IMG/VR virus record: IMGVR_UViG_3300047174_000059
Coordinates: 1 to 59,809 of that record
Origin: a virus
Strand: one strand, 5' to 3'
Length of the DNA stretch: 59,809 nucleotides
Below the pieces are notes generated by a model. The model was not told where the DNA came from and made no database searches. It saw only the letters and a program-made list of their open reading frames with translations. Positions within the stretch are counted from its first letter, which is position 1; the number at the start of each line of letters is the position of its first letter. The translations under genes were made by a program, and so were the position numbers. Positions 15,701-42,464 of this stretch are shown here, in pieces.

Positions 15701-17092
15701 ATGCCGCCTCCTAACTCTGGTGTCCGGACGCCGATATCGCTGACGATGGCCCCGAATGGCCAGTGGATGAACGCCTTCCAGCCCAGCAGCGGCGTCTTCT
15801 CGCCGGGCCTGCCGTTGGTGCCGCCCGACCCTCAGTCGACGCGTGTCTTCGACTTCGCCGTTGGCTCCAACAGCAATATCACCCCGCGGTCCTACGAGAC
15901 CTTCGGCTTTGCGTCACTCCGGGCTTTCTCGAACGTCGAATTGGTCCGGCTGGCGATCGAGACCTGCAAGGATCGCGTCGAGCGCCTTGAATGGCGCATC
16001 AAGCCGAAGAACGAAAAGAAGCCGCAGCACGACGCGGACGTGCGTATCCGCAAGATGGAGCGCCTTTTTCGCCGGCCCGATGGCGCCACCGACTTCGCGA
16101 CGTGGCTGCGCATGTCGCTGGAAGACCTGCTTTCGATCGACGCGCCGGCATTCGAAAAGCGCCGCAGTCGCAATGGCGACCTGATCGCGCTGGATGTGGT
16201 GCCGGGTGACACGATCAAGCTTCTGGTCGATGAAACCGGGCGCCGCCCACTGCCGCCGGTGGCCGCCTATCAGCAGATCATCAAAGGCCGCGTCTGGAAC
16301 AACCTGACGACCGACGATATGCTTTACGCCCCGCGCAACCGCCGCCCGAATCACCTCTATGGCTTTGGCCCGGTCGAACAGACCATCGTCACGATCAACA
16401 CGCTGCTACGTCGGCAGACGATGCAGCTGGCCTATTTTACCGAAGGCAACATCCCGGCCGGCCTGATCAATGCTCCTGATGGCTGGACCGCGCAGCAGAT
16501 CAAAGATTTCCAGGACTGGATGGATGCTCGCCTAAGCGGCAACCAGGCCGAGCGGTCAAAGCTCCTCTGGGGGCCGAACGGCGCAAAGTATCACGCCTTC
16601 AAGGAATCGCCCCTAAAGGACGACTTCGACGAATGGCTAGCCCGCATCGTCTGCTTTGCCTTCAACATCCCGCCGACCCCGTTCATTCGCCAGATGAACC
16701 GCGGGACTGCCGCCGACGATACGCAGCGGGCGATGGAAGAAGGCCGCGAGCCGCATCTACTCTGGTGGAAGCGCGTTGCTGACGGCGTCATTCAAGACGA
16801 CTGCGGCAATGACGACCTTGAATGGACTTGGGACATTCCCAAGGAAGTCGATCCGGTCGTGCAGGCCAAGGTGCATGACATGTACCTCCGCAACGGCACT
16901 CTGAGCATCAACCGTGTGCGCGACGACCTGGGCGAAGAGTCCATCCCCGGCGGCGAAGAGCCGATGATCTACACTGCCACGGGCGCGCTTCCGATTTCGA
17001 TTGTTCTGGAGCGCGCAGCCGAGCCTCAGGTGACGCCGCCCGCGCCCGAGAGTGCTGGCCCATCTGGCCAGCCTCAGGAGACCGAGAAATGA
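15701..17092 (+). CDS. Portal protein
   Basis: A 463-residue portal, the dodecameric ring through which DNA enters and leaves the head. HK97/SPP1-family features include FASLRAFSNVELVRLAIETC, the stem region and DEWLARIVCFAFNIPPTPFI. Its position between terminase and protease and its length fit the family. Confidence 0.87.
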   Translation: MPPPNSGVRTPISLTMAPNGQWMNAFQPSSGVFSPGLPLVPPDPQSTRVFDFAVGSNSNITPRSYETFGFASLRAFSNVELVRLAIETCKDRVERLEWRIKPKNEKKPQHDADVRIRKMERLFRRPDGATDFATWLRMSLEDLLSIDAPAFEKRRSRNGDLIALDVVPGDTIKLLVDETGRRPLPPVAAYQQIIKGRVWNNLTTDDMLYAPRNRRPNHLYGFGPVEQTIVTINTLLRRQTMQLAYFTEGNIPAGLINAPDGWTAQQIKDFQDWMDARLSGNQAERSKLLWGPNGAKYHAFKESPLKDDFDEWLARIVCFAFNIPPTPFIRQMNRGTAADDTQRAMEEGREPHLLWWKRVADGVIQDDCGNDDLEWTWDIPKEVDPVVQAKVHDMYLRNGTLSINRVRDDLGEESIPGGEEPMIYTATGALPISIVLERAAEPQVTPPAPESAGPSGQPQETEK

Positions 17093-17433
17093 CGACATAC
17101 AATGTGACCAGTCGCACCTTTCGGGTTATCCCGCCCGCAGGCGCCCTTGCGCTCGTCACGCTGCCGAGCGGTCGTGTTGTTGACGGAAGAAACGTCGCCT
17201 ATGCCGACGTTCCCTTCGCAGATGCGAACCATCTGGGCGCGAACGGATGGATCATCCTGATGGAGTCGGGGCCGACCTCGGCGCGGCCGCAGGCCGGAGA
17301 AGCCAACGATCTGCGCGGCCTCAAGATCCAGATGGGCGCTGGCCGGCCCTACTATGACACGACACTGAGCTGTGCCGTCTACTGGAACCCGGCGAAGAAT
17401 GGCTGGGTCGACGAGACAGGCACGTCGCGCTGA
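17089..17433 (+). CDS. Hypothetical head-region protein, 114 aa
   Basis: A beta-rich small protein (FRVIPPAGALALVTLPSGRV). Lying between portal and protease, coupled by overlaps at both ends, it is probably a minor head component. No family recognised. Confidence 0.55.
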   Translation: MTTYNVTSRTFRVIPPAGALALVTLPSGRVVDGRNVAYADVPFADANHLGANGWIILMESGPTSARPQAGEANDLRGLKIQMGAGRPYYDTTLSCAVYWNPAKNGWVDETGTSR

Positions 17434-18995
17434 TGCATTTCTACGGCGACATCCAGCGCATCGACGAAGATGCGCGCATGGTCTGGGGCTACGCTTCGAC
17501 CAGCAAGCCCGCATCGGATGGTCAGACCATCACGCGCGCCGCGCTGGAAGCGGCACTTGAGGGCTACGCGAACAACATCCGCGAGATGCACCGCTCCGAC
17601 TCCGCAGTCGGTGTGGCGATGGAATCGCACGTCGACGATGAGGGCCTCTACATCGGCGCTCATGTCGTTGATGACCGTGCCTGGGAGAAGGTCGTCAAGC
17701 GCGTCTACAAGGGCTTTTCGATCGGCGCCAAGGTCACCGAGCGCGACAAGATCGACCGCAACTTGGTGCATGGCATCAACCTTATCGAAATTTCCCTGGT
17801 CGACCGGCCGGGCGATCCAGGCGCCACCTTCGACGTGTGGCGCGCCGACATGCCCGACAAGGAATCCGACATGACCGTAGCCGCCCCTGCGCCCGGCAGT
17901 GACGAGAGCGCCGACGACATTGAGCGCCGCGCGTTCACTCAGGCCGAGCGCGACAAGATGGCGAAGAGCGGCGAGGCCATGAAGGACGGCAGCTTCCCGA
18001 TCGCCAACCGTTCCGACCTGGAAAACGCCATCCGCGCCTACGGGCGCGCGAAGAACAAGCGCTCCACCAAGGCACACATCATGAAGCGGGCCAAAGCCCT
18101 CGGCGCCGAAGACCTGATCCCGGACGACTGGAAGGGCGACGACGCCATGCGCGCCGACCAGACGGCGGAAGGCGAGGATACGATTGAGCGCGCCGACCCA
18201 GTGGCCGAGGCCGCGGCAGCCGCGGAAGCCGCCACGCAGGCCGCTCAGGCAACGCTCAGCCGCCTCGACGCCGATTCCGCAATGCCGCCGCGTGTCATCG
18301 CCCTCCCTGGTGCCGACATCCGCCGCGGCATTCCAAGCGTGGCGCGACTGGGCTACCTGCTTTGCGAACTGGCCTATCTTGCGGCCGACACGCAGTGGGA
18401 ATCCGACATCGAGGGCGATGATTCGACCGTCCCCGGCAAGCTGCGTGCCGCACTGCTTTCTCTCGGCGCCGCATACCGCGCCATGAACGACGAGGAGCTG
18501 GCCGAGCTTCTGAACGGCGTCGGCGTCGATGTGCAGCTTGAGAACGGCGTCATCTGCCTTGTGGCGGCCGGCACAGACATCCGCCGCGCCGAAGGCGATC
18601 ATGCCGATGTCCTGGCGCGCGCCAACAGCGCGTTGGGCGTGCTCGGCTTCAAGCCGCCGGCGGTGGCGCAAGCCGATGATCTGCGCCGCACCGTCGATAC
18701 ACTGACCGCCGACCGCGACACACTGCTGCGATCCGTAAGCGGCCTGACAGAGATGATGGGCAACCTCGTCGCCCGCGTTGAGGCGATGGGCGCTCAGCCG
18801 CTCCCGCCCAAGACGGCCGCCGCGACGATCGCGCGTGTCGTTTCGAAGGAAGAGGACGCCTCCGGGCAAGAGGCATCCTCTGCTGCGCCAAGCGAGGCCG
18901 ACATCCGCCGCGTCCTTGATGCCATGCCAGACCATGAACGCGCGCATCTGCTCACGAAAGCGGCACTCGCCCGGCCGACCCCCATTACCCGCTAG
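17433..18995 (+). CDS. XkdF-like prohead protease fused to a scaffold-like region
   Basis: A 520-residue protein. The first 140 residues match the XkdF putative serine protease: IQRIDEDARMVWGYASTSKP, MESHVDDEGLYIGAHVVDDR (with the candidate catalytic His) and YKGFSIGAKV (candidate Ser). A DUF6582-like module follows (FTQAERDKMAKSGEAMKDGS, then SDLENAIRAYGRAKNKRSTK). The rest is a long alanine- and acid-rich helix, probably the scaffold, cleaved off during head maturation. Length well above a bare protease supports the fusion. Confidence 0.78.
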   Translation: MHFYGDIQRIDEDARMVWGYASTSKPASDGQTITRAALEAALEGYANNIREMHRSDSAVGVAMESHVDDEGLYIGAHVVDDRAWEKVVKRVYKGFSIGAKVTERDKIDRNLVHGINLIEISLVDRPGDPGATFDVWRADMPDKESDMTVAAPAPGSDESADDIERRAFTQAERDKMAKSGEAMKDGSFPIANRSDLENAIRAYGRAKNKRSTKAHIMKRAKALGAEDLIPDDWKGDDAMRADQTAEGEDTIERADPVAEAAAAAEAATQAAQATLSRLDADSAMPPRVIALPGADIRRGIPSVARLGYLLCELAYLAADTQWESDIEGDDSTVPGKLRAALLSLGAAYRAMNDEELAELLNGVGVDVQLENGVICLVAAGTDIRRAEGDHADVLARANSALGVLGFKPPAVAQADDLRRTVDTLTADRDTLLRSVSGLTEMMGNLVARVEAMGAQPLPPKTAAATIARVVSKEEDASGQEASSAAPSEADIRRVLDAMPDHERAHLLTKAALARPTPITR

Positions 18996-19030
18996 CTGAA
19001 GCCTGCATCCCGGCCGGCAGGCCGTTCAAC

Positions 19031-19053
19031 AGCCGCCTTAACGGCGGCTTTTT
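19031..19053 (+). terminator. Rho-independent terminator before the capsid gene
   Basis: Stem AGCCGCC/GGCGGCT with loop TTAAC followed by a T run. It would set capsid transcription apart from the protease gene, or reduce readthrough. No separate capsid promoter is obvious in the 20 bases after it. Confidence 0.75.
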
Positions 19054-19073
19054 GTGGCCAGGAGGCCAACCAA

Positions 19074-20606
19074 ATGTCTGAAGACGCGCTCGCTACGGCC
19101 CTCCGTGGCAGCCTGACGAATCCCTCCGAGGATATCGCCCGCTCGATCCTTGCCGCCGCTGGCGCGCATCCCGACGACATCCAGCGCACGATTTCGACCG
19201 GCACCGGCCTCGTCGCTTATGACCTGCAGGCGCCGGCCAAGAACCTCTACCCGGTCTATACGCCGGTTCGGAACAGCCTGCCGCGCGTCGGCGGCGGCGT
19301 CGGCACGGCGACCAACTGGCGCCAGGTAAATGCCATCGTCGGCTCCGGCTACGACGGCATGGGCTGGGTGCCGGAAGGCCAGCGTGCCGGGCAGATGAGC
19401 TACAGCACCTCGAACAAGGCCGCCTCCTACGCCACGATCGGCGAGGAAGACGGCGCCACCTTCGAGGCGATCAACGCAGCGCGCACCTTCGAAGACATCC
19501 GCGCCACCATGACGATGCGCCTGCTGCAGAAGGCCTTCCTGAAGGAGGAGTCGGCCTGCCTGTTCGGCAACAACTCGCTGGCCCTCGGCACGCCCGCCAC
19601 CCCGACGCTTTCCGCAAGCGGCACCGGCGGCACGCTGCCCGCCGCGACCTACAGCGTCATCGTGGTCGCGCTCACGCCCGAGGGCGTCCGCAACATCACC
19701 ACGGCCGGCATCGGCACCACCAAGACCATCACGGGCGCGGACGGCAAGACCTTCACCCTGAATGGCGGCTCCTCGATCAAGTCGGCGAACGCCACCCAGG
19801 CCGTGACGCTCGGTCAGACCCTATTCGCTTCCACGACCGCCATCCAGGGCGCCGCAGCCTATGCGTGGTTCGTCGGCACGGCCGGGAACGAAGTGCTGCA
19901 GACCATCACCTACATCAACAGCGCGTCGTTCGCGCTGCCCCTGACGACCGGCACGCAGGCGGCCACCGCGGTCGGCGGCGCCGACTACTCCACCAACAGC
20001 ACCGCCTTCAACGGCCTGTTCACGACGGCCGCGCTCAGCGGGTCGGGCGCCTACGTCAACTATCTCGCCACCGGCACCGCCGGCATTGGCACGCCGCTCA
20101 CCTCTTCGGGCCGCGGCTCGGTCATCGAGATCGACACAATGATGAAGGCCATGTGGGACAACTATCAGGTCTCGCTGGATGTGCTGTACGTCAACTCGCA
20201 GGAGTTGCGGAACATCACGACCAAGGTGCTGACGGGGGCCAACGGCGGCTCTCTGATCAACTACTTCCAGGACCCGAAGGCGGGCGAGTACATCATCTCT
20301 GCCGGCGGCATGGTCGAGTTCTACTACAACCCGTTCATGGCGCCTGGGGCCGGCCGCCGCATCCCGATCATGATCCACCCGCAGGTTCCGGCGGGCACGA
20401 TCATCGGCTGGGCCAAGAACCTGCCGATCCAGTACCAGAGCAGCGAAGTGCCGAACGTCGCCGAGGTCAAGACGCGTCAAGACTATTACCAGATCGACTG
20501 GCCGATCACGACGCGTCAAAGGCAAGTTGGGGTATATTCGGAAGAGGTGCTCGCCGTCTATGCGCCGTTTGCCATGGGTATAATTTCTAACATCGCGAAC
20601 GGATAG
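19074..20606 (+). CDS. Major capsid protein with an inserted beta domain
   Basis: A 510-residue HK97-fold shell protein. N-terminal and C-terminal parts (NLYPVYTPVRNSLPRVGGGV; EVKTRQDYYQIDWPITTRQR) match capsid proteins of this type. Residues about 185-310 (threonine-, alanine- and glycine-rich, ATPTLSASGTGGTLPAATYS onward) look like an Ig-like or Fn3-like insertion that would project from the shell. Strong GGAGG upstream. The capsid call rests on order in the head cluster and on the fold pattern. Confidence 0.85.
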   Translation: MSEDALATALRGSLTNPSEDIARSILAAAGAHPDDIQRTISTGTGLVAYDLQAPAKNLYPVYTPVRNSLPRVGGGVGTATNWRQVNAIVGSGYDGMGWVPEGQRAGQMSYSTSNKAASYATIGEEDGATFEAINAARTFEDIRATMTMRLLQKAFLKEESACLFGNNSLALGTPATPTLSASGTGGTLPAATYSVIVVALTPEGVRNITTAGIGTTKTITGADGKTFTLNGGSSIKSANATQAVTLGQTLFASTTAIQGAAAYAWFVGTAGNEVLQTITYINSASFALPLTTGTQAATAVGGADYSTNSTAFNGLFTTAALSGSGAYVNYLATGTAGIGTPLTSSGRGSVIEIDTMMKAMWDNYQVSLDVLYVNSQELRNITTKVLTGANGGSLINYFQDPKAGEYIISAGGMVEFYYNPFMAPGAGRRIPIMIHPQVPAGTIIGWAKNLPIQYQSSEVPNVAEVKTRQDYYQIDWPITTRQRQVGVYSEEVLAVYAPFAMGIISNIANG

Positions 20607-31632: not shown

Positions 31633-32760
31633 ATGGCATTGTCGCTGCAGAATTTCGCGACCATGGTCCAAAACATGGCCGCAGCGGTGCAGGGCGCGGC
31701 CTCGCAGCTCATCGACCTCACGATCGGCTCTACGCTGCGCGCGATCCTGGAAGCGACCGCTAGCGTCAGCCTGTGGTTGCAGTATCTTATCCTGATCGTG
31801 CTCCAGGGCACGCGCCTGGCGACCAGCGCGGGAACCCAAGTTGATACTTTCGGAGCAGATTTCGGCTTCACTCGGCTGCCGGCGACCTACGCGACCGGCG
31901 CCGTCACCTTTTCGCGCTTCACGGCAACCAACTCGGCACTGATTCCGATCGGCGCCCAGGTGCGGACAGCCGATGGGACGCAGACGTTCGCAGTCACGGA
32001 AGACACCACCAACTCGCTGTGGAGCGCATCACTTAACGGCTACCTGATCCCCGCCACGGTCGCGAGCGGCACGGTTCCGGTGATCGCGGTGAATGCAGGC
32101 ACGCAGGGCAACATCGTCGCTGGTGCCATCAACCTGATTGTCGGCGCGATTTCTGGCCTCGACACTGTGACCAACGCGCTGGCCTACACGAATGGCGCCA
32201 ACGCCGAGTCCGACGCCGCTTTCAGGTCGCGGTTCGTGAACTTCATCAACAGCCGCGCGCGTGCCACGTTGGCGGCCGTCACAAACGCGGTTCTCTCGGT
32301 CCAGCAGGGTTTGACGTGCCAGATCGTCTCGAACGTCGACACGGCAGGTAATTTCCTCGCCGGCAATTTCGTGGCCTACGTCGATGACGGCACGGGCTAT
32401 CCCTCGTCGCCGCTCCTTGCTGAGGTTTCGGCCGCAGTTGATGCGGTTCGCGGCCTGACGATCAGCTACAACATCCAGCCGCCTACCGTCATATCGGCAG
32501 CCGTCGTGATGACGATCGTGGCCGCACCAGGCTACACCTCGTCCAATCTCACGGGGCCAGTGGCGACTGCGCTCACGGCCTTCATCAATGGCCTTGGGAT
32601 GGGCGTGGCGCTTCCCTATTCGCGCCTCGCCCAGGTGGCCTATGGCGTGACTGGGGTGGCCAATGTCACGGGCGTGACCCTGAACTCTGGAACCGCCGAC
32701 ATCGGCGGCGCTCAGGGCGATTCGGTCCACGTCGGCTCGCTGACGATCAATCCGGGCTGA
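31633..32760 (+). CDS. Baseplate protein J
   Basis: A 375-residue J-like wedge protein; LSLQNFATMVQNMAAAVQGA, LIDLTIGSTLRAILEATASV and NGANAESDAAFRSRFVNFIN are typical. It forms the periphery of the baseplate. Confidence 0.88.
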   Translation: MALSLQNFATMVQNMAAAVQGAASQLIDLTIGSTLRAILEATASVSLWLQYLILIVLQGTRLATSAGTQVDTFGADFGFTRLPATYATGAVTFSRFTATNSALIPIGAQVRTADGTQTFAVTEDTTNSLWSASLNGYLIPATVASGTVPVIAVNAGTQGNIVAGAINLIVGAISGLDTVTNALAYTNGANAESDAAFRSRFVNFINSRARATLAAVTNAVLSVQQGLTCQIVSNVDTAGNFLAGNFVAYVDDGTGYPSSPLLAEVSAAVDAVRGLTISYNIQPPTVISAAVVMTIVAAPGYTSSNLTGPVATALTAFINGLGMGVALPYSRLAQVAYGVTGVANVTGVTLNSGTADIGGAQGDSVHVGSLTINPG

Positions 32761-33495: not shown

Positions 33496-33518
33496 AGGCA
33501 CCTCCGGGTGCCTTTTTA
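33496..33518 (+). terminator. Rho-independent terminator after the baseplate genes
   Basis: AGGCACC/GGTGCCT stem with loop TCCG, then TTTTT. It separates the baseplate module from the fibre genes. Confidence 0.85.
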
Positions 33519-33531
33519 TTGGAGTCCGTCT

Positions 33532-34818
33532 TTGGACCGCAGAATCGTCTATCCAGCATCAATCCCGCTCGACACTGACTTCCTCTTTATGGAACAGCGC
33601 GCGATGGTCGCGCTTGGCTATATCGCGGAGATGTTGGGCGGAACGTCGGGCATCGTGTTTGATCTCGCATGCACGCCGACATCTCCGGCCTCAATGGTCG
33701 TCAACATCGGCCGGGGCGCCATCACCGCGCTCGCTGAGGTCGATGCCACGGCATTCGGCTCGCTTGGCACTGACACTGCAGCCCTGGTCAAGATGGGCAT
33801 CAACGAGGCCGCCACGCCCTTCACGCTGACGGCGCCCGGCACATCGGGTCAGTCCATCAATTATCTGATCGAAGCGCAGATGCTGGAACAGGACGGCACG
33901 CCGATCGTTCTGCCCTACGTCAACGCGGCCAATCCCTCGATGCCCTACGCCGGCCCCGGCAACAGCGGCACGGCTCAGAACACGGTGCGCGCACAGTCGG
34001 TCGGACTCCAGCTCAAGGCCGGCGCTGCCGCCACGACAGGCACGCAGACCACGCCATTGGTTGATGGCGGCTGGGTCGGGCTCTACATCATCACCGTCAA
34101 CTACGGCCAAACGACCGTTACGTCGTCTTCGATTTCGGTTTATCCGGGGGCGCCGTTCATCGGTGGGGGCGCTGTCACCCTGGGCCGTCTCATCAACGTC
34201 CAGAAGTTTTCTGGATCTGGCACCTACACCCCAACACCAGGGACAACCGAATGCATCGCCGAAGTCGTCGGCGGTGGCGGCTCTGGCGGCGGAGCGCAAG
34301 CCACTTCGGCTGGCCAGACTTCCTATGGAGGCGGCGGCGGTGGTGGCGGCTATGCAAAGGGCCGCTACCCTGTCGCAACCCTGACTGGCCTTGCTGTGAC
34401 CGTTGGCGCTGGCGGCTTCATAAGCTCGGGGAACGGCAACCCCGGCAACTCCTCTTCCATCGGAAGCGTCATCAGCGCCACGGGCGGCGGCGGTGGATCG
34501 GTGGCTTTGGCCAACACGCCGCCCGCCATGGCCGCCGGCGGTGCCAGTGGCATCGGTAGCGGGGGCAACATCCTGAACTCAGGCGGCGGCCCTGGCGGCG
34601 CGGGGATCGCGCTCTCCGTGGGAAACGGCCAAGCCGGCTTTGGTGGCGGCTCCGCGCTGACTGGTGGTGTTGTGGGTCCGTATTCGAACACAGCGGGCGG
34701 CAACGCTGGCTTCGGCCCCGGCTGCGGCTCTTCCGGCGCGTCCAGTCAGAACGGCGGCGGCACCGAATCATCCGCAAGCGCGGCGGCGGGAATCGTCATC
34801 ATCTACGAGTATAGCTAA
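33532..34818 (+). CDS. Tail fibre with a glycine-rich domain
   Basis: A 428-residue protein. The N-terminal part (LDRRIVYPASIPLDTDFLFM) is probably the attachment domain. From about residue 235 a glycine-rich domain begins (ECIAEVVGGGGSGGGAQATS), of the type forming polyglycine-II helices at fibre tips. The TTG start at 33532 is chosen because GGAG lies eight bases before it; the more upstream start would fall inside the terminator. Confidence 0.75.
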   Translation: MDRRIVYPASIPLDTDFLFMEQRAMVALGYIAEMLGGTSGIVFDLACTPTSPASMVVNIGRGAITALAEVDATAFGSLGTDTAALVKMGINEAATPFTLTAPGTSGQSINYLIEAQMLEQDGTPIVLPYVNAANPSMPYAGPGNSGTAQNTVRAQSVGLQLKAGAAATTGTQTTPLVDGGWVGLYIITVNYGQTTVTSSSISVYPGAPFIGGGAVTLGRLINVQKFSGSGTYTPTPGTTECIAEVVGGGGSGGGAQATSAGQTSYGGGGGGGGYAKGRYPVATLTGLAVTVGAGGFISSGNGNPGNSSSIGSVISATGGGGGSVALANTPPAMAAGGASGIGSGGNILNSGGGPGGAGIALSVGNGQAGFGGGSALTGGVVGPYSNTAGGNAGFGPGCGSSGASSQNGGGTESSASAAAGIVIIYEYS

Positions 34819-35030: not shown

Positions 35031-35345
35031 ATGACCACTCCCGCGTGGACGGTGAATCTCGGCCTGGGCACGGCCAGCGGCACAGCGCTCGTCGAGCCTA
35101 CGGCGGCTGAATACGCACGCCAGCCGGTGACGTTCACCGCGTTCCCGAGTTTCACAAGCCCCATGGACCAAGCTGCCAACTTTGGCGCGACAGTTACTTC
35201 GTGGGGGACACTGACATCCTGGGCGATTTTTGACGCAGCTGGCAATCAGATGTGCCCGGTCAAGCCGCTGTCCGCGTCTATCAATGGCGCCCCTGGGCAG
35301 ACCGTCAGCGTCATGGCGGGCGGGATCGTGGTGACCCTCGCGTGA
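35031..35345 (+). CDS. Small beta-rich adsorption-region protein, 104 aa
   Basis: MTTPAWTVNLGLGTASGTAL begins a beta-rich protein with VTFTAFPSFTSPMDQAANFG. It overlaps the GTG of the giant fibre gene, so the two are probably made together. No family recognised. Confidence 0.5.
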   Translation: MTTPAWTVNLGLGTASGTALVEPTAAEYARQPVTFTAFPSFTSPMDQAANFGATVTSWGTLTSWAIFDAAGNQMCPVKPLSASINGAPGQTVSVMAGGIVVTLA

Positions 35346-38300
35346 CCACTGGTGCAAACACGATCACGGTCAGCGCTGCCGCTACGGCGGTTGCCTGGGT
35401 GCCGTCGCAGGACCGCACCATCATCGTGCCGGCGATGTCGAGCGCAAACGTCCGGGGCATTGCCGCGTCTACGGCGTCGACTTTCACTATGGCGCCCGTT
35501 CAGGCCGGGTCTGATCTCGATTTCAGCTTCGACGTATCGGCGAACATTGCCTTTGGCGATACCATTGAAACCGTCGTCGCCAGTGTGGCGCCCACAACGC
35601 TGACGATCGTATTCGCTGGCGGCACCGGGAGTTTGGCCACGATCTGGGTCAAAGGTCTGGTGGCTGGGCAGGCTTACCTGTTCAGCGTCACCATCGTGAC
35701 GCGTCAGGGGCGCACGATCCATCTTTCTGCAACGCTCACGGTGCCAGGCTTTCCATCGGTTCCTGGCACGGTGACCGTTGTCACGGTCCCGCAGAGTTAC
35801 GTGGACAATGCAGTAGGCACCGAGGCCGCGATCCGCGCGGCCTCAATGTCGGGTTTGCAAAGCGGCCTCGCCTCGGAAGCAACGACGCGAGCCGCGGCGG
35901 ACACGGCGATCAGCGCCGCGGCCGCGCAGCGCGCGAACAATCTGTCCGATCTGGCGTCAACGAATTCCGCGCGCGAAAACCTAGGCCTCGGCGACGCCGC
36001 CGTCCTCAACGTCGGCACGATCGCCGGGACGGTGGCGGACGGTGGAGCGCTTGCGGCCACTGCAGAGCTTGCCTCCGCCGCTCTCCCCGCCGCTTCTCTC
36101 CCCGCCGCCTTGGCACCCTATGCGCCCCTTGTGGCCGCCCCACTCGTCAATCCCACCACGACCACGCCGCCGCAGTCCGACTCCTCTGCTTTGGTCCCAA
36201 ACACCTCATGGGTCCAATCCGCAATCTCCGCCGTTTCTGGAGGCTATGCCCAGCATGCGAGCGTCAGCGCGGTAGCGACGGGCAACGTCAGTCTCGCCGC
36301 GCCAGGCGCCACGATTGATGGCGTGACGCTCGTCACGGGCAATCGCATCCTGCTGACGGGGCAGACAACGGCCTCGCAGAACGGCTACTGGGTGTGGACC
36401 GGAAGCGCCGCGGCCCTCACGCGCCCCGCCGACTGGGCGAGTGGCAGCACGCAGGGCGGCGGCAAGCAGGCGGTGGCTCTGACCCTCGGTGGCACCGTCA
36501 ACGCCGGCATCTCCTGGGCCTGCACGACTACAGGCGCCATCGTTGTGGACACCACGGCGACCGCGTGGACGCAATCATCGTTTCAGAGCCCCATCATCGC
36601 CGGACAGGGGCTGCAGCTCACGGGCGGTGTGCTGGCACTGGCAAACGCCTACACGGTGCCGGGCGCGGTCATCCCAGGCACAACTATCGCGCCCCTGGAC
36701 CTGCTTCTTGATGGCCACAACCGCGTCATCCAAGCATCAGACACCGGAACCCTGTATCAGGCCGCCAGCACGGGGCTTGTGGCGGCGCCGAACGCCGCTG
36801 CTCTTGCGGCGACCAACGCCACAATCTCCACCGAGACGGCTGCCCGCGCTGCGCTGATCGAAACGGCAACCACCGTTATTCCCAATCCGCCAGAGACCCT
36901 GGCCGAGATCGTGCTCGACGAACAAAATCGCGTTGTGCAGGCGCGAGGCGACAGCGGCGCCGTCTATCTGCCTGTCGCGTCTGGGCTGGATGCGGTCGTC
37001 ACCAAGACCGAGCTGACCGAGACTTATCAAGGCCGCGTCTTTGTGCCCGGCTTTAGCTCGCCCGTCAGCGTGACGCTTGATTCGGAATACCGCGTCACTG
37101 AGATGCTTCTGGAGAGCGGGACCAGCTACACTCAAATCGCGACCGGACTTGATAGAGTCGTTACCGCATCACAAGTGCCGGATAGCTACACATCCGCTGC
37201 GGTCGTCGTCCCAGGGTTCGGGCCAGCGGCTGATGTGACGATAGATCCATCAAACCGAGTCACCAATCTCGTCACGTCTTCGGGCTCCAGCTATGGCGCG
37301 ACTGCAGCCGGCCTAGTGGCGCCTTCTGCATCCGCGCAGAACCCCCTGCACTTCGACGTGGTTGTCTATGGGGGCACAATCGGCGGCATCATGGCGGCTT
37401 ACCGGGCGTCCGTACAATACGGGCTGCGCGTCTGCATCATTGAGGCCACGCACTGGCTCGGCGGTGCGAGCGCTGCGGTTGGCTTGTCATTTGTCGATCA
37501 ACCTGCCACGCCAGGTCAGATCGGGGGGGATACCTACAACACTTGGTTCGGCACAATCGTATCAATCGATGGATCGTCTGCTCATCGCTACCAGTATGAG
37601 CCTAAGACCGGCCAGCAGACCGCGAACCAGCTGGCGGCGAAAGCGGCCGTCCTGTCCATCACCGACAGCCCAATCTACGGGCCGAGCGATCTGCTGATAA
37701 GCACGGGCCTCCTCGGCGTCACCATTCTCGGGATCATGACCCGCGTGGGTTTGGTGACCGGAACGCAATTCATTGACGCATCCTACGAAGCGGACTTGGG
37801 GATTGCGGCTCTTGGCATGTCCTACTTCACGATCGGCCGCGAATCGACTGCAACCTATGGGGAAAGCGCCGCGGGATTCCAGCCGGGAAGCGCCGCTACC
37901 TACGCAGTCTCAGACAACCAATACTACCCCGTCATTCCGACCATAACCGGAACGACTGGACAGGCCGACAACATGGTTCAGTCCTGGGGGTTTCGCGGGG
38001 CTCTTACACGAACCGCTGGCAACGTCATCCCGTTCTTCGAGCCGCCCGGCTACAATAACCAAAACTATATAGCCCAACTTGGAATCTATGCGGACCAGGG
38101 TATTACGGCGTTCGCTAGGCCAGTTTCGAACCAAGTATTCTACCAAGGGGGTCTTCCCAATGGGAAGATTGCCGTCAACGGAGGTGACCTTCCCAACTAC
38201 GCCAGCGCGTATTGCTCGGCAAACTGGAACACGCGCAAAGGCCTCATGCAGCAGCTGGGCTATTATTACATGGGCCTCCTGTACTGCATTCAGAGCGATC

Positions 38301-38866
38301 CTCTTACGGCGACTCTTGGTCTTTCGGCCCTTCAAGCCGACAGCCAAGGATGCGGATACTGCGCCGATGAATTCGTTGGCTCTCCTTTCGGAAACGGCGT
38401 CCCAATGTGGGGTTATCTCCGCGAAGGTCCGCGGTTCACGGGTGCCGCCTTGGTAATAACGCAAGCATACACAACCGGCTCGGGGATTGCCGTAAGCGAT
38501 CCCGTTTGCACCTATAATTATGCGCAAGATTTCCACAACGGCCACCTCTATGCCGTCAACGCTTCGTCCAATAGTGGCGTGGTCTCGGAAGGCTTCCCCC
38601 CTCTCTCCGGCGCGGCTCCGGTGGTCGGAATGTCGGCGCGGACGATGCAGACGGCGGTTGGTGGATCGCCCAACCTACAAATTAGCACCGCGTTTGGCGC
38701 TTCACACATTGGATGGGGACCGCTTCGGCTTGAGCCCAACTTTGGGATGATGGGCGAAGGTGCGGGCGTGATCGCCGCTCAATCCGTCCTCTCAGGCGCG
38801 CCAGTTCAAGGCTTCAACTATTCCGCCGTAGCAGCAGCCCTTACCGCTCGCGGTTCAATTCTTTAA
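35342..38866 (+). CDS. Giant tail fibre fused to an FAD-dependent oxidoreductase
   Basis: A protein of 1,174 residues, starting at GTG 35342, which overlaps the previous stop. Residues 1-220 are beta-rich and helical fibre (NNLSDLASTNSARENLGLGD is a typical fibre segment). About 300-400 is a fibre domain (GNRILLTGQTTASQNGYWVW). About 455-660 has four repeats of roughly 45-50 residues with D-x-x-NRV or similar. From H670 on there is a full PF12831-like flavoprotein: Rossmann start DVVVYGGTIGGIMAAY (672-687), E701 in RVCIIEATHWLGG, YLREGPRFTG near 1025 and the C-terminal FAD segment AFGASHIGWGPLRLEP near 1115. All the usual landmarks of that family are present in order. A receptor-modifying enzyme at the fibre tip is my inference. 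Confidence 0.88.
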   Translation: MTTGANTITVSAAATAVAWVPSQDRTIIVPAMSSANVRGIAASTASTFTMAPVQAGSDLDFSFDVSANIAFGDTIETVVASVAPTTLTIVFAGGTGSLATIWVKGLVAGQAYLFSVTIVTRQGRTIHLSATLTVPGFPSVPGTVTVVTVPQSYVDNAVGTEAAIRAASMSGLQSGLASEATTRAAADTAISAAAAQRANNLSDLASTNSARENLGLGDAAVLNVGTIAGTVADGGALAATAELASAALPAASLPAALAPYAPLVAAPLVNPTTTTPPQSDSSALVPNTSWVQSAISAVSGGYAQHASVSAVATGNVSLAAPGATIDGVTLVTGNRILLTGQTTASQNGYWVWTGSAAALTRPADWASGSTQGGGKQAVALTLGGTVNAGISWACTTTGAIVVDTTATAWTQSSFQSPIIAGQGLQLTGGVLALANAYTVPGAVIPGTTIAPLDLLLDGHNRVIQASDTGTLYQAASTGLVAAPNAAALAATNATISTETAARAALIETATTVIPNPPETLAEIVLDEQNRVVQARGDSGAVYLPVASGLDAVVTKTELTETYQGRVFVPGFSSPVSVTLDSEYRVTEMLLESGTSYTQIATGLDRVVTASQVPDSYTSAAVVVPGFGPAADVTIDPSNRVTNLVTSSGSSYGATAAGLVAPSASAQNPLHFDVVVYGGTIGGIMAAYRASVQYGLRVCIIEATHWLGGASAAVGLSFVDQPATPGQIGGDTYNTWFGTIVSIDGSSAHRYQYEPKTGQQTANQLAAKAAVLSITDSPIYGPSDLLISTGLLGVTILGIMTRVGLVTGTQFIDASYEADLGIAALGMSYFTIGRESTATYGESAAGFQPGSAATYAVSDNQYYPVIPTITGTTGQADNMVQSWGFRGALTRTAGNVIPFFEPPGYNNQNYIAQLGIYADQGITAFARPVSNQVFYQGGLPNGKIAVNGGDLPNYASAYCSANWNTRKGLMQQLGYYYMGLLYCIQSDPLTATLGLSALQADSQGCGYCADEFVGSPFGNGVPMWGYLREGPRFTGAALVITQAYTTGSGIAVSDPVCTYNYAQDFHNGHLYAVNASSNSGVVSEGFPPLSGAAPVVGMSARTMQTAVGGSPNLQISTAFGASHIGWGPLRLEPNFGMMGEGAGVIAAQSVLSGAPVQGFNYSAVAAALTARGSIL

Positions 38867-38876
38867 GGACCCCGCA

Positions 38877-40013
38877 ATGACCGTTACCGTTCGCCAACTT
38901 TCGCAAGCGATTGCGAATGAGAACCTGCCTGTCGCGATCACGAACCCTACTGAACTCGCTATCTACAACGCGGGTCCGACTGCATGGTGGTCAAACAACC
39001 AAGCCACGATGAAGGGGGTTATCACCAGCAGCCCATTCACATGGCAGGACCGTGTAAGCCTGACTCCGCTGACGGCTGCCATCAGTGGGACGCAGCCGAT
39101 CCCAAGCACTGATTCGATCTCCGGCATCCCCTATCTTGCAATGGGTTACGGCGGGTCTCTTGCGCAGACGAATTTCACCTTGGCCCAGATACTAATACAT
39201 CTGGGTGGAACGGGATACGTCACCGGGGACACGGGCACGGACGCGAACGGAACGGTCTTCAATCTTACCGCATCTGCGGGCGCTGTCACGGGAGCCACAG
39301 TGCGGACGCTCGGGACATACTCGTCCTATCCTTCCAATCCGGTCTCTTTTGTCAGCACCTCGGGTGCTGGGACTGGATGCGCTCTTGATCTAGACTTCGA
39401 GTCCCCGAACGGCGGCGTAATCACTGCAGCCGGGTCCACTCTTCTGCCGACCTCAGGGCCGCTCTCCTTTGTTGCCGCGTTTCGTTGCCCTGTTGTAGGC
39501 GGCGTGGCCGGAGCAACCCCTGGGGGGGTGCTTCTCGGAAACGCGCTTAGCCAATCCAAATTCGCGGACGTTGCTGCAAACATTCGGCTTACCGGACTGG
39601 GGGTTGGATACGGACCAGGCGGAAACGCCGGAAAGTTGGTATTCCGCGTCAGTGGCGATGCAAGGATTTGCTTCCCGTCTGCGGCCCAGGATCTCCGTGA
39701 CGGAAACTGGCACGTTGGGATTGGTGGTATGACGCCGTCCGCCGGAGCCGCGAACCTCTGCCTCGACACGGGGCAGATCGCAACGCTGTCGATTCCGACC
39801 AACACGACCATCAATAGCACGCCAGGCGCGCAGATGATTCGTGTTGGTGATGCCGGCTTGCCTACCAGCCTCCCGGTCTTCGGGTGGTCCGGAGATATTG
39901 GCGACATGATGGTCTGGCCGATTGATCTCACGGCCTCCGCCAATACCGCAACGCGCCAGCTCGTGGGGAACTACCTCAATGCCAAATATGGCGTCAGCGG
40001 AACGTGGTCATAG
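38877..40013 (+). CDS. LamG-like adsorption protein
   Basis: A 378-residue protein. The C-terminal 210 residues have the pattern of a LamG/concanavalin fold: GPLSFVAAFRCPVVGGVAGA, DLRDGNWHVGIGG and DIGDMMVWPIDLTASANTAT with NYLNAKYGV at the end. Such domains bind sugars. It is preceded by GGACCCCGCA. It probably extends the receptor-binding set after the oxidoreductase fibre. Confidence 0.65.
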   Translation: MTVTVRQLSQAIANENLPVAITNPTELAIYNAGPTAWWSNNQATMKGVITSSPFTWQDRVSLTPLTAAISGTQPIPSTDSISGIPYLAMGYGGSLAQTNFTLAQILIHLGGTGYVTGDTGTDANGTVFNLTASAGAVTGATVRTLGTYSSYPSNPVSFVSTSGAGTGCALDLDFESPNGGVITAAGSTLLPTSGPLSFVAAFRCPVVGGVAGATPGGVLLGNALSQSKFADVAANIRLTGLGVGYGPGGNAGKLVFRVSGDARICFPSAAQDLRDGNWHVGIGGMTPSAGAANLCLDTGQIATLSIPTNTTINSTPGAQMIRVGDAGLPTSLPVFGWSGDIGDMMVWPIDLTASANTATRQLVGNYLNAKYGVSGTWS

Positions 40014-40017
40014 CCCC

Positions 40018-40494
40018 ATGCGCATCCTTCTCGTAGCCCTCTGCGCGGCGTTCGCTCTCGCGCGCCCAGCCCTCGCCCAGCAGGCGATCCAGACGCCCAA
40101 TGGGGCCGTCGTCCCGACGGTGGGGGCGTTCCCGGTCGTCAATGGCGCCCCGGTTTCGAACTCAAACCCACTGCCAACCACGCCCGCTACGGGCGCCGCA
40201 TCATCCACCCAGTCGATCACGCAGACGACCGTCGCAGTCTCCGCCAACACCGACACCGTGGTCTCGGCCGCCAGCACGACGTTGCGATCGCTCGGCATCT
40301 TTGTTCAGACATCCGGTGCGCCTTGCAACCTTGCGTTCGGAATCGCCGCAGCGTCTGGCGTCGGGCTGCTGCTCGGATCGGGCTCGACCATCGGCTATGG
40401 CTACACCTGGGGGGCAGCCGATCCGCCGCCGAACAATGCGGTGCATGCTTACTGCACGACTGCCGCCACCATCGTCGTCTGGCAAGGAAACTAA
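40018..40494 (+). CDS. Secreted adsorption-region protein, 158 aa
   Basis: Begins with an apparent Sec signal peptide MRILLVALCAAFALARPALA followed by QQ. The mature part is Ser/Thr/Ala-rich (TQSITQTTVAVSANTDTVVS). A signal peptide in the middle of the tail-fibre genes is unusual. No family recognised. Confidence 0.65.
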   Translation: MRILLVALCAAFALARPALAQQAIQTPNGAVVPTVGAFPVVNGAPVSNSNPLPTTPATGAASSTQSITQTTVAVSANTDTVVSAASTTLRSLGIFVQTSGAPCNLAFGIAAASGVGLLLGSGSTIGYGYTWGAADPPPNNAVHAYCTTAATIVVWQGN

Positions 40495-40496
40495 CC

Positions 40497-42464
40497 ATGC
40501 GCAAGCTCCTACCTCTCGTCGCACTCCTTTGCACCCTCGCATCAGGCGCGTGGGCCGGGCCAGTCGGCTCTTCTTCTCCGCCGTTCGGGATAACATCTGC
40601 GTCTTTCGCGGGCATGGACCCCACGGGTGCTACTGACAGTTCCGGCGGTCTGGCTCTGGCCTGCGCATCAAGCCGTCGTGTACAGTTCCCCGCAGGCACT
40701 TACACCATTCACCTCAAGGCAGGGGTGTCATCACCGTGCGTTTTCCCCTCAGGCGGCGGGGCCATCATTCAAGGGGAGGGCGCGAAAACCATTTTTAACG
40801 TTATCAACGATGACGGCGCATTCCACACGATATTCAGCGCGTCCGGCCCCACGACGGCGCTAAAAGACTTCACTCTGAACTATACGGGTGTCGTCGGGTC
40901 TTCCGACACCACAATCATGGTTGCTACGGCTAGCACGACCGTCATGTTGGACAATCTGACGGTTAACGGTGGCATTGCTACCACCTCATCTTCGACCCTG
41001 AATTGGAAGTTCAACCCGCTTCAATACGCGGGTAATACCGCCGACGTGACGGTGCAAAATTCCCGCTTCACGGCGACCGGATATATCGCGCAGAAGTCCA
41101 ATGCGCAGACGACAGGCAGCATCAAGCTCCATTATTACAACAACACCTTCAATCAGATGTGGGGAGACCTGCTCAACAATTCGCCGCTCGGAGCCTGCAC
41201 CGACATTGATATTGAGCACAATACTTTCTATGACAACCTCTGGACGACCGCCTATGGTGGCGGCGGGAACGGACAGTTCTGGATTTCGGTGGCAGGTTGC
41301 CAGTCGGCTCGGATTATCTCAAATACCGGCACAGGTCTCGTTGAAGCTGGCGTGCATTTTGAGGACAGCACCGCGCACCTCATCATTGCCGACAACAATT
41401 TCAACCCCAACGGCGGCAAGTGCATTGAAGCAGTCCCGAATAATGTCTCTACCAGCGGCGGCGCTTACGTCTCCCCCAGCTACGTCAATATCAGCAACAA
41501 TGATTGCCTTAACACGGGATCGCTGACGGGCATTACCGGGATCGATGCAGGCATTAATTCTAACGGTCCGGGTATCGTTAACGGCATTATCTCGGGCAAC
41601 ACGCTGACGAACTTTGCCACTGGCATCAAAGACGGCGCGCGGCCTCAGGACGATTTAGAAGTTGTCGGCAACCATATTCTAAGCGGCACACCCGGCACGC
41701 AGGGCACTGGCACGATTGGGATACAGGCGCAGCAAGCATCGCAATCCATCCGCGAGAATACAATTGTCGATCAAATCACGGGTGTCCAAGTTTCGGGCGG
41801 CGGCACGCTGGGAACGAATACCTTTCAGGACGTGACGACGCCTTGGGCTTCCTCCGGATCGTCTTTTGCAATTACGGGGAGCAAATTCATTATCCCCTCC
41901 TACACTCACGCTTGTGGCAGCACCTACGTTGATGTCCCGCTATTCAGCAAAAGCAAGGTAACGTATTTCGGAACGCTGACAGGCTATGACACGGGGTCGG
42001 GGGCGACAAATAACGTTGCCTACTCGGCAAACCAAATCGTAACGTCTGGCACGTCAAACGCCACCTTCGTTGCCCCAACGTCGCTTACCAATCCCGCGCA
42101 AGGCGCTGCTTTTGTGGCGGGCATTTCCGGGTTTAATCTGACAGTAAGCACGGTCACAAGCGGCACGATTGCGGTGGGACAGCAGATTACGACGGGCGCA
42201 CTAGCGGGAACTGTAATTACAGGAGGCTCCGGCACCGCGTGGACTGTCAATCTTTCTCAGAGTGTTACTACTGGAACGTCCATGGTGGCGAGTGGCGTCA
42301 CTACCCCATCGTCTTACAGTCCCGGAAATTTAGCAGCGGGCTCAAAATACAACACGGGCACCGGCACAATCGATGCTTACATGTTCTGTAACGCGACGGC
42401 GGGCGCGAACATTACCGTGTATGCTGAGTATCAACTGACCGGTGCAGGTGCGGTAGCGCCGTGA
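40497..42464 (+). CDS. Beta-helix tailspike-like protein with a signal peptide
   Basis: A 655-residue protein. MRKLLPLVALLCTLASGAWA is a strong signal peptide. The mature protein starts with ASFAGMDPTGATDSSGG, the usual pectate-lyase/tailspike opening, and continues as right-handed beta-helix turns with asparagine ladders (FDHN-like NNTFNQMWGDLLNNSPLGAC, IEHNTFYDN). The C-terminal part (VTSGTIAVGQQITTGALAGT) repeats short beta hairpins. It is probably a polysaccharide depolymerase, but it may be exported rather than built into the tail. Confidence 0.75.
   Translation: MRKLLPLVALLCTLASGAWAGPVGSSSPPFGITSASFAGMDPTGATDSSGGLALACASSRRVQFPAGTYTIHLKAGVSSPCVFPSGGGAIIQGEGAKTIFNVINDDGAFHTIFSASGPTTALKDFTLNYTGVVGSSDTTIMVATASTTVMLDNLTVNGGIATTSSSTLNWKFNPLQYAGNTADVTVQNSRFTATGYIAQKSNAQTTGSIKLHYYNNTFNQMWGDLLNNSPLGACTDIDIEHNTFYDNLWTTAYGGGGNGQFWISVAGCQSARIISNTGTGLVEAGVHFEDSTAHLIIADNNFNPNGGKCIEAVPNNVSTSGGAYVSPSYVNISNNDCLNTGSLTGITGIDAGINSNGPGIVNGIISGNTLTNFATGIKDGARPQDDLEVVGNHILSGTPGTQGTGTIGIQAQQASQSIRENTIVDQITGVQVSGGGTLGTNTFQDVTTPWASSGSSFAITGSKFIIPSYTHACGSTYVDVPLFSKSKVTYFGTLTGYDTGSGATNNVAYSANQIVTSGTSNATFVAPTSLTNPAQGAAFVAGISGFNLTVSTVTSGTIAVGQQITTGALAGTVITGGSGTAWTVNLSQSVTTGTSMVASGVTTPSSYSPGNLAAGSKYNTGTGTIDAYMFCNATAGANITVYAEYQLTGAGAVAP

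Follow-up and report, generated by a model that had tools for sequence, protein, structure and literature searches.

To our knowledge, phages act on the surface polysaccharides of the host with virion-borne enzymes of the hydrolase, lyase and deacetylase or esterase types. In tailspike and fibre depolymerases, be they beta-helix hydrolases and lyases, SGNH esterases or BNR propellers, an N-terminal attachment part is followed by an exchangeable C-terminal surface-acting module. The fibre gene described here would follow the same plan; it lies in a 59,809-base IMG/VR virus record (this whole stretch of DNA is called the window) and ends in a flavoprotein domain of the FAD_oxidored family (PF12831). 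Two proteins of Ralstonia podophage GP4 have counterparts at this locus, since Gp77 (PF23148) matches the N-terminus of the window fibre and Gp80 (PF23140) matches the ORF upstream of it; the window phage differs from GP4 in having a sheath and a baseplate.

Within the open-access literature, we found no published account of a phage fibre that ends in a flavoenzyme. An oxidoreductase goes unmentioned in a study of Rhizobium phages from common bean regions (PMC8245606). An 'FAD-dependent oxidoreductase' is listed for phages P10VF and phiM9 (PMC10783043); a query of phage records with the FAD domain did not match it. The statement of an earlier note on this DNA that no such system has been described thus agrees with the open literature that we searched, but three proteins exist in the databases, all from Rhizobium phages, two of them named FAD-dependent oxidoreductase and the third filed as hypothetical.

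A tail fibre gene with a C-terminal flavoprotein domain

The fusion of a fibre to a full flavoprotein, claimed in the earlier note, is encoded in one uninterrupted frame, with a PF23148 adaptor domain for virion attachment at the N-terminus and a full-length PF12831 match at the C-terminus (profile positions 1-416 of 416; 126.9 bits against a cut-off of 27 bits; Table 1). The gene starts with GTG, an alternative GTG upstream at 35252 being possible, and its start is overlapped by four bases (GTGA) by the preceding ORF. The stalk carries the four repeats that had been noticed before, in the form D-x-x-[NY]RV. In a Pfam scan of the fibre, PF12831 was the sole enzyme domain, and no beta-helix, hydrolase, lyase or esterase domain was found. 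The N-terminal 433 residues are matched by 254 phage records and, among the matches listed, all lie within residues ~278-433; the phrog_2647-type virion domain is common to proteins of other phages that are labelled head decoration or tail fibre.

Genes for a sheath, a tape measure protein, a baseplate hub, baseplate J and a glycine-rich fibre lie upstream and indicate a contractile tail. The fibre gene itself sits in the tail operon after the baseplate genes, and a lysozyme gene is found downstream. Being fused to a fibre adaptor within a tail operon, the FAD domain does not resemble an intracellular auxiliary metabolic gene, which would stand alone and outside the virion genes. The portal and capsid-like proteins (window 15701-20606) are nearest to those of the Brevundimonas phages Polewnik and Strzyga (~41% identity), though the window phage has a sheathed contractile tail. 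A placement of the window phage near a cultured phage was considered and dropped, the tail modules of these Brevundimonas phages being annotated differently, and no close relative of the window phage was found.

Viral contig searches, which scanned via short patterns so that their counts are lower bounds, gave the contigs referred to here as L002, L005 to L012, L095 and L096. In a separate IMG/VR search, the partner gene directly downstream of the window fibre was found only beside FAD fibres (window, L006, L007 and L096), and its copy in L096 matches PF13385 (Laminin_G_3; E 3.2e-7). An AlphaFold model of the partner was unusable (pLDDT 31). For the spike-like protein that follows, no match was found in Pfam, PHROG or the PDB; a beta-helix spike-like gene is also present downstream of the FAD fibre in L096, as judged by eye. 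The spike-like protein of the window opens with a signal-peptide-like stretch, MRKLLPLVALLCTLASGAWA, which is unusual in virion proteins.

Table 1. Features of the fibre locus, in window positions
Feature	Position	Strand	Basis
Baseplate J protein, tail operon context	31633..32760	+	PF04865, E 1.6e-33
Glycine-rich tail fibre-like protein	33508..34818	+	phrog_863, E 1.8e-41
Small protein matching fibre protein Gp80	35031..35345	+	PF23140, E 5.3e-09
Tail fibre with C-terminal FAD_oxidored domain	35342..38866	+	1174 aa, single open frame and Pfam
Fibre-tail adaptor domain, Gp77-like	35504..35737	+	residues 55-132, PF23148, E 2.7e-11
Phage virion domain	36200..36646	+	residues 287-435, phrog_2647, E 5.2e-25
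Stalk with four D-x-x-[NY]RV repeats	36659..37336	+	residues ~440-665; motifs at 457, 526, 580, 635
FAD_oxidored domain (PF12831), C-terminal tip	37355..38842	+	residues 672-1167, E 1.6e-36
Partner gene, probable Laminin-G/concanavalin-like protein	38877..40013	+	a homologue follows the FAD fibre directly in L006, L007 and L096
Probable right-handed beta-helix spike-like protein	40494..42464	+	repeat pattern by eye

Fold and conserved residues of the FAD domain

Structure prediction of the domain, which the earlier note had proposed as a check, yielded a complete and confident FAD-type two-domain fold: the AlphaFold (AF2) model of residues 661-1174, computed from an input alignment of 53 sequences (window, viral contigs and genomes), has a mean pLDDT of 91.8 and a pTM of 0.93. 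When the model was compared with solved structures using Foldseek, the best matches were FAD enzymes of the flavocytochrome c3/fumarate reductase type (E 2e-10) with low TM-scores of ~0.27, and the domain is therefore without a close solved relative, in agreement with sequence searches of the PDB. A Foldseek comparison with viral models gave generic flavoprotein matches only. Among PF12831 members, we found none with a known substrate.

The dinucleotide-binding start, the Glu at the end of strand 2 and the conserved C-terminal segment are all present, and residues D672, G677, T679, G682, E701, G707, G708, H1122, R1129 and E1131 are conserved, as is H1065. The Rossmann start and E701 had been pointed out previously, and both are conserved, but the third Gly of the classical GxGxxG motif is a Thr (T679), which is normal for this subgroup because Thr is invariant in 32 of 32 aligned cellular homologues. 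We aligned 32 cellular and 14 phage domains, the cellular set having been picked by similarity to the window domain so that exact column counts are indicative. Of the 42 columns that are invariant in the cellular set, the window domain keeps 38, and of the 27 polar or aromatic columns among these it keeps 26; elsewhere it agrees with the cellular majority in 118 of 442 well-filled columns (27%; Fisher p 2.3e-16 against the invariant columns). At the level of sequence, then, this is not an FAD fold that has lost its conserved residues, and because the invariant columns are kept to such a degree relative to the others, its active site is probably maintained.

The fold might instead serve only as a receptor-binding, lectin-like domain, without redox chemistry and with FAD either missing or purely structural. 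Such a role would fit the position of the domain at the fibre tip, its exchange in the manner of a receptor-binding module (see below) and the loss of invariant residues in some phage copies, L011 keeping 31 and L009 32 of the 42 columns. However, the window domain and that of L096 keep 38-40 of these columns, including 26-27 of the 27 with polar or aromatic residues, and have changed in ~70% of the other columns, a pattern that is hard to reconcile with a domain devoid of catalysis and cofactor binding. Given the invariant residues kept, we regard reuse of the fold for binding, which the earlier note had offered as a second option, as the main rival but less likely than a working oxidoreductase.

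Cellular relatives, module exchange and recurrence

Cellular PF12831 relatives occur in Planctomycetota, Acidobacteriota, Bacteroidota, Verrucomicrobiota and Actinomycetota and often have a signal-like N-terminus. Their link to carbohydrate loci comes from a few example loci, taken without an enrichment control or a statistic: one PF12831 gene adjoins GH28 and GH2 genes (L004), another SusC/SusD genes (L020), a third (L015) is next to another PF12831 gene as well as genes for an ABC transport permease and a beta-helix protein, and a fourth (L016) has an enolase-superfamily gene in its flank. The L004 sequence (MT836609.1), although labelled Bacteriophage sp., resembles a Bacteroides-type chromosome fragment and is therefore counted solely as a cellular example. 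In an ML tree, the window domain shares a group with those of L096, L005, L006, L007 and L008 as well as two actinobacterial proteins, from Kribbella and Jiangella, and the Rhizobium type and L009/L095 fall outside this group. A single origin of all phage FAD domains was rejected (AU p 0.00015, with the caveat of several long branches). That the phage domains do not form one clade suggests that they may have been recruited more than once.

A full FAD domain is present in three of 50,697 phage records, those of Rhizobium phages RHph_N3_19 (QIG73101.1), RHph_I72 (QIG76482.1) and RHph_Y55 (QIG68875.1), with PF12831 located at the C-terminus. Here the gene sits among terminase, portal and head genes, and its N-terminal region differs from that of the window fibre; because it belongs to the head module, its product may be a head fibre. 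This branch of FAD domains has lost some of the invariant residues.

Comparison of related Rhizobium phages indicates how the FAD module is exchanged. Between RHph_N3_19, which carries the FAD module, and RHph_N3_13, which carries a BNR_4 module, only the first 36 residues of the gene align (64%), whereas 22 other late gene products that were compared are ~80-100% identical; the N3_19 gene EVB99_115 was unmatched in this comparison, its likely counterpart lying outside the compared set. One module likewise replaces the other between RHph_Y55 (FAD) and N17 (BNR_4), where the flanking proteins are mostly 77-94% identical and one is 58% identical. The FAD proteins of RHph_Y55 and RHph_I72 are 88% identical over residues 29-852, and the structural proteins shared by these phages are 34-60% identical. 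At 72-86% identity, the BNR protein is found in several further Rhizobium phages with other genome sizes. Relative to RHph_N3_19, RHph_N3_13 (L105/L106) has its large terminase gene annotated in two pieces, and a gene annotated as a sigma-factor decoy interrupts its ribonucleotide reductase gene.

The Rhizobium FAD proteins have an N-terminal region related to the C-terminal part of the BNR protein (hhalign 97.3%). The same N-terminal region is also related to a stretch of a phiM12 protein that has an SGNH esterase-like part, and in phiM12 this stretch touches families of virion structural, tail and Hoc-like decoration proteins as well. Because these adjoining regions are related, the FAD, BNR and esterase-like modules have a common setting in rhizobial phages. 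A common origin of the Rhizobium-type N-terminal region and the Laminin-G-like partner was also considered and dropped, as profile comparison gave no similarity (hhalign 0.1%). Judged by the pattern of exchange in its Rhizobium relatives, the FAD module would behave as an exchangeable receptor-binding or depolymerase module.

Many flavoprotein oxidases transfer electrons to oxygen, and on this general ground a virion-borne enzyme could work by way of hydrogen peroxide, or have a substrate other than a glycan, and so weaken the envelope or affect competitors instead of acting on a receptor polysaccharide. The carbohydrate loci of the cellular relatives and the exchange of the FAD module with a BNR module nevertheless indicate glycan targets, which makes such a mode of action quite improbable in our view and leaves an enzyme acting on glycans as the preferred reading.

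The fusion seen in the window recurs in independent contigs, as a search suggested by the earlier note showed. The protein of L096 (1081 aa) has D-x-x-GR-type repeats and PF12831 at residues 576-1070 (E 5.8e-61), the domain being 36-38% identical to that of the window, and the protein of L006 combines N-terminal matches to tail fibre PHROGs, repeats similar to those of the window (by eye) and PF12831. The repeat-plus-FAD fibre is thus present in L096 and L006, and probably also in L007, where an FAD-tipped protein with one or two weaker repeats (by eye) is encoded directly after a gene matching tail fibre/central tail fibre J. Because of this recurrence, we reject an assembly artefact, and a frameshift between fibre and enzyme is ruled out. 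Further virus contigs join the FAD domain to another N-terminal region, as in the Rhizobium phages; among catalogued phages, no stalk or partner of the window type was found.

In L095, a Golvesin_C domain follows the FAD domain. L009 and L095 have one IMG genome number and closely similar FAD_oxidored proteins with different N-termini and phage genes nearby, and are possibly two prophages of one host. A second long fibre is encoded in L096 (7636-11346); it has a long, repetitive coiled stretch rich in alanine and, near its C-terminal third, a motif like that of pectate lyases.

It is very improbable that the window protein is no virion component at all, be it through an assembly error or the chance fusion of a metabolic gene: many phage flavoenzymes are intracellular, the copy in L008 stands alone and has a signal-like N-terminus, and L009 and L095 have few or no fibre features, but the fusion is found in several independent contigs as well as in complete genomes of cultured phages, and the window gene combines a fibre adaptor domain with a tail operon context.

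Proposed function and relation to known systems

We think it probable, if by no means certain, that the gene product is a fibre on the virion of a contractile-tailed phage and that its C-terminal module, a folded and FAD-loaded oxidoreductase, has a glycan of the host envelope as its target. By homology, the N-terminal adaptor and the repeat stalk would hold the protein on the baseplate. The C-terminal domain would fold, as the model and the conserved residues indicate, and presumably bind FAD in the host cytoplasm during assembly. At adsorption, it could then dock on the surface polysaccharide and either oxidise one of its sugars or cleave it via transient oxidation, which would help the phage to attach or to pass through the layer. 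The downstream Laminin-G-like and beta-helix proteins may act on the same layer, and phages would trade the FAD module as they do other modules for receptor binding or depolymerisation. Participation of a redox enzyme in adsorption, as the earlier note imagined it, gains indirect support from the recurrence of the fusion, the exchange with BNR modules and the carbohydrate context of the cellular relatives; the oxidation of a surface sugar itself is what we infer.

More tentatively, redox flavoenzymes on virions might constitute a class of oxidative or redox-neutral FAD-dependent glycan depolymerases, recruited on more than one occasion from bacterial carbohydrate-use loci and traded as a fibre module. 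If a conserved flavoenzyme indeed occupies this position, redox chemistry would join the list of phage enzymes acting on surface polysaccharides, and it would offer a first handle on the substrates of FAD oxidoreductases from carbohydrate-use loci, which form a large and uncharacterised group. The pairs of Rhizobium phages that differ at the FAD/BNR gene make the idea testable.

The Rhizobium phage proteins are like the window fibre in placing PF12831 at the C-terminus of a phage protein and differ in their non-FAD parts, with a phrog_26223-like N-terminus in RHph_N3_19, in their head-module locus and in their FAD domains, which are ~25% identical to that of the window. Cellular PF12831 enzymes share with the window domain a full-length profile match, the same conserved residues and ~27-36% identity; unlike them, the window domain ends a phage fibre with adaptor and stalk and forms a long branch in the tree. 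The likeness to tailspike and fibre depolymerases extends to sibling Rhizobium phages, in which a BNR module takes the place of the FAD module. In contrast to those enzymes, however, the module of the window fibre is a flavoprotein oxidoreductase and not a hydrolase, lyase or esterase, and for this reason the fibre falls outside the classical definition of a depolymerase.
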